Shown here piece by piece: positions 44,469-47,733 of a stretch of 64,000 nt of DNA. Origin of the DNA: Candidatus Nitrosotenuis uzonensis (GTDB lineage Archaea; Thermoproteota; Nitrososphaeria; Nitrososphaerales; Nitrosopumilaceae); contig NZ_CBTY010000008.1 of NCBI RefSeq assembly GCF_000723185.1, forward strand, positions 62,001-126,000, read 5' to 3'. Under the pieces are notes generated by a model. That model saw only the letters and a list, made by a program, of their open reading frames with translations. It was not told the origin of the DNA and made no database searches. Both the position numbers and the translations under genes were made by a program. The stretch's first letter is position 1. Each line of letters opens with the position of its first letter.

Positions 44469-45554
44469 CTAGCCTCTGATTTTTTTTGTTATCGTAGCTT
44501 CCAAATTGTCGAACAGCTCGAGAATCTTACCCTTATTCTCACTTAGATAATCTGCACCTTTTTCTTCAAGTCTTACTTTCAACAATCTTATCTCACGGTG
44601 CTCTTCGAGAAATTGCTCTATCATCATACCACCAAGCTTGTTAGGTTCTATAAAGTCGTCAAAATTAGAAATAATTTTTTCTATGTTTTCTTCCTCTATG
44701 GCGATTTTGGTTGTCTGTATTGCGTCACTGATCTCTTTGAGTCCTTTGATTACTCCTGGAAGCTTTTTGGTGGTGCCAAGCAGACTCCTCCTTTCGACTC
44801 CTACCTTGTTTGCAAGCTCTGGCTCTATGTCATAAGTGTCAATTTTGTTGAGGCCTTGTCTTTTTTCGTTTCTCACAATGAGACCTTTTTCAAGAAGTTT
44901 CTGAAGTGCATGTTCTGCATCTGCTTTACTGATGAACGTGGTCCAGACTATTGCACCTATGGTATGATACCCCTGTCTTATAGATTCAAGTACCACTACC
45001 TCGACTATTCTCTTGAAGCCTTCCTCGATTCTGACGTTTGTAAAGTCCTTGTCCTTGACTGCGCGTTTGGCGTTTTTGACATCGATCTCAATTGAGCGCC
45101 TCAACGACTCTAATGATGCAGGAACTTCGTTCAGTAATGATAGATAGCAAGCCTTGTTGTACCAGGCCATCCCAAATGTGGGATCTGATTCTATTGCTTT
45201 TTCAACACAGTCCAGTGCCTTTGCGTAGTTTTTTTGCTGGTAGTGCACGAGCGACTTGAGGTTCCATGCCTCTGCATTGGCAACATCTATGTCTAGCACT
45301 TTATCGTATGCGGCTAGGGCACCGGAATAATCATCAAGGTGAAACTTGGAATAACCTAGCTTTAGCAACGCCTCGACGTTACCAGGATCAAATCTGAGGA
45401 CTTGGTCAAAGACCCTTACTGCCTCCTCAAGCTTTTCGTCTGCCATCAGGTGGATGCCTTTTTTAATCAGCTTATTTTTCTGGTAGTCTGCCTTGACTAG
45501 GCTGGTCTCACCCTCGTCTACCTTCTTTGGCAGGTTTTTTTCCTGATCCTTCAT
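44469..45554 (-). CDS. TPR protein with winged-helix-like domain
   Basis: A 361-aa protein: about three TPR units (residues 25-160, for example AVRVFDQVLRFDPGNVEALL), then a region with winged-helix character (about 185-260, GYHTIGAIVWTTFISKADAE and LQKLLEKGLIV), and a C-terminal coiled coil. The combination suggests a regulatory or adaptor protein that may bind DNA or RNA; no catalytic residues are seen. Divergent from the collagen-like gene with about 80 bp between them. Confidence 0.7.
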   Translation of the reverse strand: MKDQEKNLPKKVDEGETSLVKADYQKNKLIKKGIHLMADEKLEEAVRVFDQVLRFDPGNVEALLKLGYSKFHLDDYSGALAAYDKVLDIDVANAEAWNLKSLVHYQQKNYAKALDCVEKAIESDPTFGMAWYNKACYLSLLNEVPASLESLRRSIEIDVKNAKRAVKDKDFTNVRIEEGFKRIVEVVVLESIRQGYHTIGAIVWTTFISKADAEHALQKLLEKGLIVRNEKRQGLNKIDTYDIEPELANKVGVERRSLLGTTKKLPGVIKGLKEISDAIQTTKIAIEEENIEKIISNFDDFIEPNKLGGMMIEQFLEEHREIRLLKVRLEEKGADYLSENKGKILELFDNLEATITKKIRG

Positions 45555-45613: not shown

Positions 45614-45664
45614 ATGATGGAAAATACAAAAATACATGCACATTACAAGTTGTATATTGCCTAG
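45614..45664 (+). other. Possible 16-codon leader frame before the collagen-like gene
   Basis: ATG ATG at 45614-45619, preceded by a ggaga string, opens a 16-codon frame ending at TAG 45662-45664; four bases later stands ATG 45669 in the collagen-like frame. This could couple translation, or could mark a sequencing frameshift that hides the true N-terminus of the collagen-like protein. Confidence 0.3.
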
Positions 45665-47240
45665 CGATATGAAAAAACTAGAGGTTTCAGGCACAGCACC
45701 ATTCAAGCAGGCAGGCGTATACGAAGTTCAAATCATACTATGCGATATCAAGCCCACAACGGAAGAGATTATCGAGAAAAGATTCAGTTCTTTGTGGCAG
45801 GATGGATTTCATTTACACGTAAAAGATAACAAATTCACACAGGTGTTAGGTAGCAACACCAACCCACTCCCGGAATCGATTTTTGATTTACCGTCGATCT
45901 GGGTTGTGGTAAGAGATCAGTTCTCATCACTTCATTCTGTTTTTGAAGTTTCTCTGGGGGGTGGCCATCATGAGGAGGCTGCACCGCCTGTACGACAAAA
46001 AAGGACAAGGGAGACTATGGAAGAGACTCCAGCACCTATGCAAGAAGATCGATTCATTTCAGCAAGAGGTGAACGCGGTCCCCCTGGCCCCCGCGGCCCG
46101 CCAGGCGACAAAGGCCCGACAGGCCCGCCAGGCGACAAAGGCGACAAAGGCCCGACAGGACCGCCAGGCGACAAAGGCGACAAGGGACCACAGGGTCCAC
46201 CAGGACCACCGGGTGATAAAGGCGACAAAGGCCCGACAGGACCGCCAGGCGATAGGGGCGATAGAGGTATCACAGGCCCGCCCGGCGACAAAGGCGACAA
46301 GGGAGAAAAAGGATTAACTGGTGATAAAGGCGACAAAGGCGACAAAGGCCCTCCTGGCCCGCAGGGAGACAAGGGAGAAAAAGGATTAACTGGTGATAAA
46401 GGCGACAAAGGCGACAAAGGTCCGACAGGACCGCCAGGCGACAAAGGCGACAAAGGTCCACTCGGTCCGCAAGGCGACAAAGGAGTAACAGGCCCAATTG
46501 GTCCGCAAGGCGACAAAGGTCCACTCGGTCCGCCAGGCGACAAAGGCGACAAAGGAGTAACAGGCCCAATTGGTCCGCCTGGTGATAAGGGACCTACCGG
46601 CCCTCCCGGTCCGCAAGGCGACAAAGGAATTCAAGGTCCTATAGGTGAGAGGGGTCCAAGGGGGCCACAGGGACCCACTGGTGATAAGGGTCCGCAAGGC
46701 CCGCCCGGTCCTATAGGCGAGAAAGGTCCAAGAGGACCCGCTGGAGAGGTTGGCGACAAAGGTCCACAAGGTCCGCAAGGCCCGCCCGGCGAGAAGGGAT
46801 TGACAGGCGTTCCCGGTCCGCAAGGAGAACGCGGTCCGCGTGGTCCGCAAGGCCCGCCCGGCGAGAAGGGACTTACTGGTCCGCAAGGCCCGCCCGGCGA
46901 CAAAGGCGTTCCCGGTCCGCAAGGCCCACAAGGTGAACCTGGTCCACAAGGTCTCCCAGGAGAGAAAGGCCCACAAGGTCCGCAAGGGATACAAGGCCCA
47001 CAAGGCGAACGAGGCCCACAGGGTCCTAGGGGCCCACCTGGAGAGAAAGGCCCACAAGGTCCGCAAGGCCCGCCCGGCGACAAAGGTCCTAGAGGTCCAC
47101 CTGGTACGCCTGGTCCTGCAGGAGCCGCAGGAATGTCAGACGAACAAAAGGCACTATTCAGAGAGATGTTGGAGATTCTTACAAATAAGAACATCATAAC
47201 AACTGAAGAACAGATAAAGCTGATGAGCTATCTATACTAA
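45636..47240 (+). CDS. Archaeal collagen-like protein (Gly-X-Y)n
   Basis: A 534-aa protein in three parts. Residues about 12-108 form a beta-rich N-terminal domain with the pattern [12 protein letters not shown]...[22 protein letters not shown], which resembles the globular LWxE/PLPxSxF domain found beside repeats in many bacterial surface proteins. A basic/acidic linker (about 109-144) follows. Residues 145-498 are 118 consecutive Gly-X-Y triplets with no interruption (for example [19 protein letters not shown]), rich in GDKGDKG and GEKG pairs that can form interchain salt bridges. A 35-residue helical tail may trimerise the chains. No signal peptide or membrane helix is visible, so location is unclear; the start may be at 45669. 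Confidence 0.85.
46068..47129 (+). repeat. Tandem Gly-X-Y coding repeat
   Basis: 118 triplets of nine nucleotides, Gly fixed at position 1, with near-identical longer units such as ggcgacaaaggcgacaaagg repeated many times. The unit repeats suggest expansion by unequal exchange. Base composition is richer in G and C than the flanks. Confidence 0.9.
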
Positions 47241-47255: not shown

Positions 47256-47537
47256 TTGAGCGATCCAAAAAACAAAATTGAATTCAAAATGCTCGACTAT
47301 GAACGAGTAGGGGCCGATTTTGTCTCATTCAAATTAGAGGACGGTACGATAGTGAAAGTCAAAGTTGATCTGGACCGCGTTGGTATTGCAACGAATCACA
47401 AAAATCCTGATGGCACACCGCATTATGCGATAAATACATCGGTGAAGCTGACAATAATTCCAAGCGACAGAAAATTCTCAGTGGAGAAAAATCTTAAAGA
47501 CAAACAACCGCCTCCGCCAAGCCAAATGTTCAGCTAG
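47256..47537 (+). CDS. Small conserved hypothetical protein
   Basis: A 93-aa protein from TTG at 47256, preceded by a gaggt string. It is a beta-rich domain (DFVSFKLEDGTIVKVKVDL, NTSVKLTIIP) with a Pro-rich C-terminus (KQPPPPSQMFS). It follows the collagen-like gene by 15 nt in the same direction and may be co-transcribed. Not recognised further. Confidence 0.6.
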   Translation: MSDPKNKIEFKMLDYERVGADFVSFKLEDGTIVKVKVDLDRVGIATNHKNPDGTPHYAINTSVKLTIIPSDRKFSVEKNLKDKQPPPPSQMFS

Positions 47538-47595: not shown

Positions 47596-47733
47596 TTAAC
47601 GTCGTTTCTTTGTAGCTTTCTTCTTTGTAGCTTTGCGCTTCGCTGCTTTTCGTGGTGCCTTTCGAGCTGCTGTCTTCTTCGCTGCTTTTCGTGGTGCTTT
47701 GCGTTTAGCTTTTGATTTTCGTTTAGTAGCCAT
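47596..47733 (-). CDS. Histone H1-like Lys/Ala-rich basic microprotein (45 aa)
   Basis: ATG 47731-47733 to TAA 47596-47598 encodes 45 residues with about 23 Lys or Arg, built from repeats such as KAPRKAAKK and ARKAPRKAAK, closely resembling the C-terminal tails of histone H1 or bacterial Hc1-type proteins. A direct nucleotide repeat of about 21 nt lies within. Such a peptide should bind DNA or RNA non-specifically and could help compact chromatin along with Alba and SMC. An A/T-rich promoter region lies upstream (about 47750-47800). Confidence 0.65.
   Translation of the reverse strand: MATKRKSKAKRKAPRKAAKKTAARKAPRKAAKRKATKKKATKKRR

Follow-up and report, generated by a model that had tools for sequence, protein, structure and literature searches.

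Collagen-like proteins in bacteria and archaea

In the literature covered here, the prokaryotic collagens are mainly adhesins and spore-surface hairs. In the streptococcal proteins Scl1/SclA (NCBIfam NF038330) and Scl2/SclB (NF038329), a globular head is carried on a long Gly-X-Y stalk that lacks hydroxylation. BclA-type exosporium collagens are made in the mother cell without a Sec signal. The BclA/F-Anchor exosporium collagens of Bacillus consist of a collagen stalk with conserved end domains (PMC11952670), and Lcl of Legionella is an extracellular protein with a collagen stalk (PMC11162425). That archaea encode collagen-like sequences is not in itself a novelty, given that 14 archaeal sequences were counted in the collagen Pfam family (PMC4565658); a putative collagen-like surface protein has also been reported in marine Euryarchaeota (PMC5069720), and in Ca. 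N. chungbukensis MY2 'LPXTG-anchored collagen-like adhesins' were reported to be highly expressed at low salinity, with one of them detected in the proteome (PMC13037477).

Here we analyze a collagen gene located in a stretch of 64,000 nucleotides of the Candidatus Nitrosotenuis uzonensis genome (hereinafter the window; contig NZ_CBTY010000008.1, positions 62,001 to 126,000). The encoded protein resembles Scl1 and Scl2 in overall layout but differs from both in having no signal peptide, no LPXTG motif and a conserved C-terminal helical hairpin; its scores are 196 bits against NF038330 (cut-off 400) and 231 bits against NF038329 (cut-off 325). The strongest NCBIfam match, 262 bits against a cut-off of 500, is to the Lcl model NF046116, and the collagen stalk is shared with that protein, whereas the family described here is represented by one gene throughout an environmental archaeal family. 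Like the Bacillus exosporium proteins, the window protein has conserved end domains, but neither a C1q nor a DUF4183 domain is found among them, and the organism forms no spores. What distinguishes this collagen is that it is near-universal in an archaeal family, usually single-copy, unbroken, fixed in its chromosomal place and devoid of an export signal; it is a real, strongly constrained, lineage-defining and leaderless collagen, neither a chance repeat nor a contaminant. We found no paper describing the leaderless collagen of Nitrosopumilaceae in the literature covered, most subscription journals and all supplements lying outside that coverage.

Architecture of the gene and its product

The open reading frame as called extends from ATG 45636 to 47240 on the forward strand and encodes 534 amino acids; with the TTG start proposed below (45657..47240), the product comprises 527 amino acids. 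Four segments of the same strand follow each other within it, namely an N-terminal head (45669..45965), delimited by the AlphaFold2 model, family alignments and library scans, a variable, charged and proline-rich linker recognized from the alignment (45966..46067), the collagen domain (46068..47138) and a C-terminal helical hairpin (47139..47237). Residues 145-501 of the frame as called are 119 unbroken Gly-X-Y triplets, or 118 (to residue 498) if GMS is assigned to the tail, in agreement with a sequence-only reading of the window that had described 118 uninterrupted triplets at residues 145-498 of this frame. The GDK-rich character of the repeat noted in that reading is likewise borne out, GDK being the commonest triplet (28 of 119). 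The run contains no Cys, Trp, Tyr, Phe, His or Asn, and 38% of its X and Y positions are charged. Pfam Collagen (PF01391) matches the frame with a best score of 41.5 bits, above the cut-off of 27.2; across the whole genome (1,636,125 bases in 14 contigs) this model matches seven stretches, all of them inside this frame, and no further run of at least six Gly-X-Y triplets is present in the six frames of the window. With the collagen rise of 0.286 nm per residue, the 357 residues of the run would form a rod of about 102 nm.

The head, which the sequence-only reading had described as beta-rich, is predicted by AlphaFold2 as an Ig-like beta-sandwich (pLDDT 81.3, pTM 0.68), and the tail as two helices (pLDDT 85.3), both segments being modeled as monomers. 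The tail had been described as helical in that reading too, but its length of 35 residues has to be reduced to the 33 that follow the last triplet. For the window head, no match was obtained in the Pfam, NCBIfam or PHROG libraries (the latter searched to E 1) or among the PDB sequences at E 10, nor did Foldseek detect a match for the head model in the PDB and viral models at E 0.001; when 63 family rows were compared with Pfam, the head gave a few isolated matches, none with an E value better than 0.013. A second structural comparison gave Z values of up to 7.0, the highest for SgrA of Enterococcus faecium (rmsd 3.4, 89 aligned residues), which according to the guidance of that tool falls in the range noted for models without a clear match. 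A known head domain was accordingly rejected, and the predicted fold appears to be of the generic Ig/FnIII kind, without a convincing relative. The head motif 'LGS..NPLP.S.F' may resemble one in bacterial secreted proteins; a match to a Neorhizobium plasmid with an E value of 0.6 was judged to be due to chance.

The tail is conserved nearly to the last residue. For the window copy, it has no Pfam match at E 10 and includes no C1q-like C-terminal domain, and a similarity to SHOCT suspected by eye gained no support from Pfam. Given the strong conservation directly after the repeat, we propose that the tail serves in trimerization and registration of the chains.

Start codon and promoter-like box

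The frame named in the sequence-only reading is present, but its start is probably TTG 45657 rather than ATG 45636, because the corresponding codon in the relatives is ATG or GTG and a conserved element lies upstream at a fixed spacing. Across 81 aligned rows (the window and 80 named loci described below), the start codon is in every case 27-36 bases upstream of the first conserved Gly, with GTG used in 43 rows, ATG in 35 and TTG in 3 (window 45657, L065 and L067). In all 81 rows, a box of the form AAATACARAAATAC starts 34 or 35 bases upstream of the start codon, with no mismatches in 59 rows, one in 14 and two in 8. In the window, this conserved promoter-like box reads AAATACAAAAATAC (45622..45635, forward strand) and spans -35 to -22 relative to the proposed start. 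Such spacing agrees with that of the TATA region in archaeal genes transcribed without a leader, and the box probably represents a TATA/BRE region, a promoter role that we infer from its position and conservation. The exact 14-mer occurs once in the window genome; of nine genomes searched, six contain it, at most one copy each, and in five of these six it precedes the collagen gene. Thus, there is no sign of a regulon sharing this box in the nine genomes.

Distribution and conservation in the family

The head query (the N-terminal 143 residues) matched 56 of the 61 genomes of its own family, f1, and none of the 40 genomes of other families. When a profile of 63 rows was used against 300 genomes of the class, the 154 matching genomes comprised 154 of 171 from f1 and none of 129 others, 126 of the latter being assigned outside f1 from the kinship order. 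Each of the 17 f1 genomes without a match is a draft of at least 30 contigs. The match is single in 153 of the 154 genomes, with two found in G242. A pattern-based scan of 84,980 species genomes produced 108 relatives, of which 80 were kept; all 80 are titled archaeal, under names such as Nitrosotenuis, Nitrosarchaeum, Nitrosopumilus and Nitrosotalea, along with one locus titled Nitrososphaeraceae (L072) and several titled plainly 'archaeon'. On the strength of these titles, we take f1 to be the Nitrosopumilaceae, an abundant family of slender, ammonia-oxidizing archaea. The sequence-only reading had considered a collagen of this length unusual for such an archaeon, a view that finds no support in a gene that is near-universal in its family. 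The collagen repeat as such is more widespread than the head: PF01391 matches 57 of the 61 f1 genomes and 7 of the 40 other genomes of the order, and these seven genomes lack the family head.

The named set of 80 loci consists of 62 complete genes and 18 genes cut by contig ends. Every one of the 62 complete copies contains a single unbroken run, the lengths ranging from 72 to 163 triplets. The conserved hairpin terminates 61 of them; the exception, L066, has a different short end, which is also that of L014, from the same genome. In an overlapping first set (L008-L062; 55 loci, 8 of them cut), a single unbroken run is present in 44 of the 47 uncut copies. Of the three exceptions, L057 reflects an assembly gap, whereas L060, from a 0.8 Mb genome of genus g5 (G020), has a short interrupted run of 10+22 triplets; two further copies from g5, L059 in G041 and L058 in G056, end at contig ends. 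The third, L062 (G022; the same copy as L161, 4889-6546), has a collagen part disrupted by a change of frame and by an in-frame stop, leaving 18+68+37 triplets and an intact tail, and appears to be either a pseudogene or a sequencing error. The L060 and L062/L161 copies imply that some members of the family may do without a full rod. The longest run, 185 triplets in a 956-aa frame, is that of L048 in a 3.2 Mb genome (G038).

Runs of 123-125 triplets account for 25 of the 62 complete copies, and runs of equal length can differ to the extent that X/Y likeness falls to 17%. A strict length constraint is a suggestion only, given the span of run lengths in the set. The codons were compared in 68 pairs of copies with equal run length and 60-97% X/Y identity. 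At X and Y codons, the residue is changed in 25% and the change is silent in 26%; the Gly codons show 0.39 differences per codon at the third position and zero at the first and second positions. Because the runs were defined by Gly, this zero restates that they are unbroken, and the independent fact is the unbroken run in 62 of 62 copies. Taken as a whole, the collagen gene is normally single-copy and vertically inherited, and its origin probably lies with the ancestor of this family.

The GPP density of the window copy, 0.168, is the highest among 64 copies and, like its charged X and Y positions, in keeping with a triple helix. After correction for the G+C content of the flanks, this copy ranks second of 61, behind L091, which comes from a MAG named Centralia, presumably the coal-fire heated soil of that name; for total proline, likewise corrected, it ranks 8th of 61 and is not exceptional. 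Strain N4 of this species, the probable source of the window, was incubated at 46 C. Thermal adaptation of the repeat via GPP is suggestive, no more; should a stable triple helix be confirmed, the window protein would extend the known collagens to an organism growing at this temperature. A dedicated prolyl isomerase was considered as well and rejected, in that Pfam Rotamase (50 of 61 family genomes, 7 of 40 others) does not track the collagen.

Gene neighborhood

In the named loci, the usual gene order is sulfite-reductase-like, rhodanese, TPR/winged-helix (opposite strand), collagen, p93 (in some loci), GTPase, phosphatase and argS, where the gene names derive from our reading of the window genes. 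Homologs with the same neighbors in related genomes, which the sequence-only reading had suggested looking for, were thus found, and contamination or misassembly is rejected because the same household synteny recurs in the relatives. The window copy carries all the features by which we recognize the family, that is, the head, the unbroken Gly-X-Y run, the hairpin tail and the adjoining TPR/winged-helix gene. The latter (44469..45554, reverse strand) is a conserved divergent neighbor, present in 77 of the 80 named loci and located at most 300 bases from the collagen frame in 75 of these 77. Downstream of the collagen gene, p93 (47256..47537, forward strand, TTG start) encodes 93 amino acids; in 48 complete loci the sequence continues for 1500 bases or more past the collagen, and of these, 30 contain p93 and 46 the GTPase gene. 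The window copy of p93 has no Pfam match, and the mean column identity among 28 family members is 72%. Beside p93, on the reverse strand (47597-47733), the window contains a 45-aa frame rich in Lys, Arg and Ala (MATKRKSKAKRK...) that resembles a histone tail.

Both the TPR/winged-helix gene and p93 had been put forward in the sequence-only reading as possible partners of the collagen, a proposal that fits poorly with their distribution. Relatives of the TPR/winged-helix gene were detected in 58 of 61 f1 genomes and in 10 of 40 other genomes, those of p93 in just 37 of 61 and in 11 of 40, respectively, a few of the p93 matches being weak; these other genomes lack the head. Family f3 includes two genomes in which the TPR and p93 frames adjoin each other divergently, 45-65 bases apart and with no collagen between them; in one of the two, about 124 bases separate the start codons. 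Accordingly, both genes are probably older than the collagen and not dedicated to it, and p93 is not obligatory. Two scenarios can account for this arrangement: either the f1 ancestor acquired the collagen gene between two genes that were already there, or f3 lost it. Given the absence of the head from every other family sampled, a gain would be the simpler one.

Export signals, location and possible role

From the proposed start at TTG 45657, the window protein has 11 residues before the first conserved Gly, which leaves no space for a signal peptide, in accord with the sequence-only reading, in which no signal peptide was visible. The LPxTG motif is absent from all 62 complete family copies. 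The most hydrophobic 19-residue stretch in these copies reaches a maximum of 1.65, whereas three exported collagens from sister genomes reach 1.78, 2.30 and 2.72 by the same measure in their N-termini; signal peptides were assessed from hydropathy and reading by eye.

Given that no export signal is apparent, the rod most likely works within the cytoplasm or against the inner side of the membrane, and we consider the chances to be about even that the gene encodes a trimeric collagen rod that is made in the cytoplasm and serves as a scaffold at one of these places. The analysis shows the gene and how well it is conserved, the uninterrupted repeat, the lack of export signals and the predicted folds; the triple helix, trimerization through the tail, the cellular location and the function as a scaffold are parts of the model that we infer. 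The chain would be translated in the cytoplasm from a leaderless mRNA; the C-terminal helical hairpin would gather three chains and set their register; the charge-paired, proline-rich Gly-X-Y run would zip up, without any need for hydroxyproline, to give a rod about 100 nm long; at its opposite end, the three Ig-like heads would bind a partner; and the rod would act as a stiff spacer or scaffold inside these thin rod-shaped cells or on the inner face of their membrane. The signal-like N-termini of the exported Nitrosotenuis collagens indicate that this genus can export collagen in the ordinary manner and that the leaderless family does not use that route. Against an intracellular place stands the general experience that Ig-like heads and collagens are more often extracellular. 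Should the protein be cytoplasmic, collagen would be an internal structural element of a whole lineage.

The same protein might instead be an envelope collagen that is exported non-classically, without a Sec/Tat signal, and lies between the membrane and the S-layer or projects through the latter, stiffening or spacing the envelope; this main rival appears a tenable but less probable reading, which would point to a secretion route still to be found. In its favor, NmPin, a small parvulin of N. maritimus, was reported outside the membrane, between it and the S-layer (PMC4922055), and the parvulin frames in the family are mostly 92-127 aa long, leaving little space for a signal, so that in these archaea a protein with no evident signal need not be cytosolic. 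The precedent is weak, however, because the same authors propose Sec/Tat as the routes (PMC4922055). The likeness of the predicted head to generic Ig/FnIII folds would also fit an envelope protein, as would the 'LPXTG-anchored collagen-like adhesin' of MY2 that was reported to be highly expressed at low salinity and detected in the proteome (PMC13037477); the MY2 member of the family (L067) scores 170 bits, below the cut-off, against the NCBIfam Scl2/SclB model carrying that name. On the other side, none of the 62 copies has an LPXTG motif or a stretch as hydrophobic as the N-termini of the exported collagens, and the sister genomes equip other collagens with apparent signal peptides. Release by lysis would remove the need for an export signal if the protein were a domesticated fiber of a virus or an injection system, and phage fibers are, as a rule, made in the cytoplasm without a signal. 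Yet no relatives of the head were found in viral contigs (the pattern scan returned 36 stretches, none confirmed), in phage records or in PHROGs (E 1), the neighbors are household genes in a fixed order in most loci, and all but one of the 154 matching genomes have a single match, all of which makes a viral origin highly improbable. We also regard as very unlikely that the repeat merely links head and tail as a soluble segment, disordered or of polyproline type, without forming trimers: the Gly period is unbroken in all 62 copies even though X/Y residues differ in about 25% of the codons, and disorder would not require Gly at each third residue.

A more specific version of the intracellular model, which we consider rather unlikely, is a collagen skeleton in which trimeric rods act as a cytoplasmic spacer or ruler and help to keep the Nitrosopumilaceae cells thin; the predicted rods would be about 60-140 nm long and, for the most frequent lengths of 123-125 triplets, about 106 nm. 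The presumed N4 cells are slender rods with a width of 0.2-0.3 um. Archaeal rod shape has been tied to actin-family filaments (PMC7613921). Pfam Actin matched none of the 61 f1 genomes and 3 of the 40 others, with six matching control genomes, none of them archaeal, so that the model may miss crenactin; within this limit, the search gave no sign of actin-family filaments in the family. Pfam MreB_Mbl matched 95 of 101 genomes, nearly all through frames of about 500-680 aa, which appear to be DnaK, along with a few shorter frames of 236-332 aa (e.g., in G006, G017 and G043). The lack of a Pfam Actin match leaves room for another shape element, although the collagen is not thereby shown to be one. 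Against an intracellular rod, the main texts of two cryo-tomography papers on N. maritimus cells (PMC11082331, PMC11153153) contain no word beginning with 'filament' or 'cytoskelet'.

Other collagens of Nitrosotenuis

Several Nitrosotenuis genomes encode other collagens, namely L145/L146 (MY2), L147 (G008), L148 (G012) and L149 (G016), most of which have an apparent signal peptide as judged by eye, the N-terminus of L145 being excluded from this assessment. These proteins share the genus and the Gly-X-Y runs with the leaderless family but differ from it in the apparent signal, in repeats that are rich in GAT/GPT in most cases, in large adhesin-like parts and in being present in some genomes only. 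NCBIfam gives the name 'LPXTG-anchored collagen-like adhesin' to the Scl1/Scl2 models. The exported MY2 fragments score 44 and 49 bits against the Scl2 model, and all MY2 scores are below the cut-off of 325. Judging from these sequence scores, the adhesin named in MY2 may be the leaderless family member, in which case the LPXTG part of the name is wrong; such automatic names, drawn by the repeats, call for caution. The exported collagen of G008, L147, contains 559 unbroken triplets in a frame of 2518 aa.
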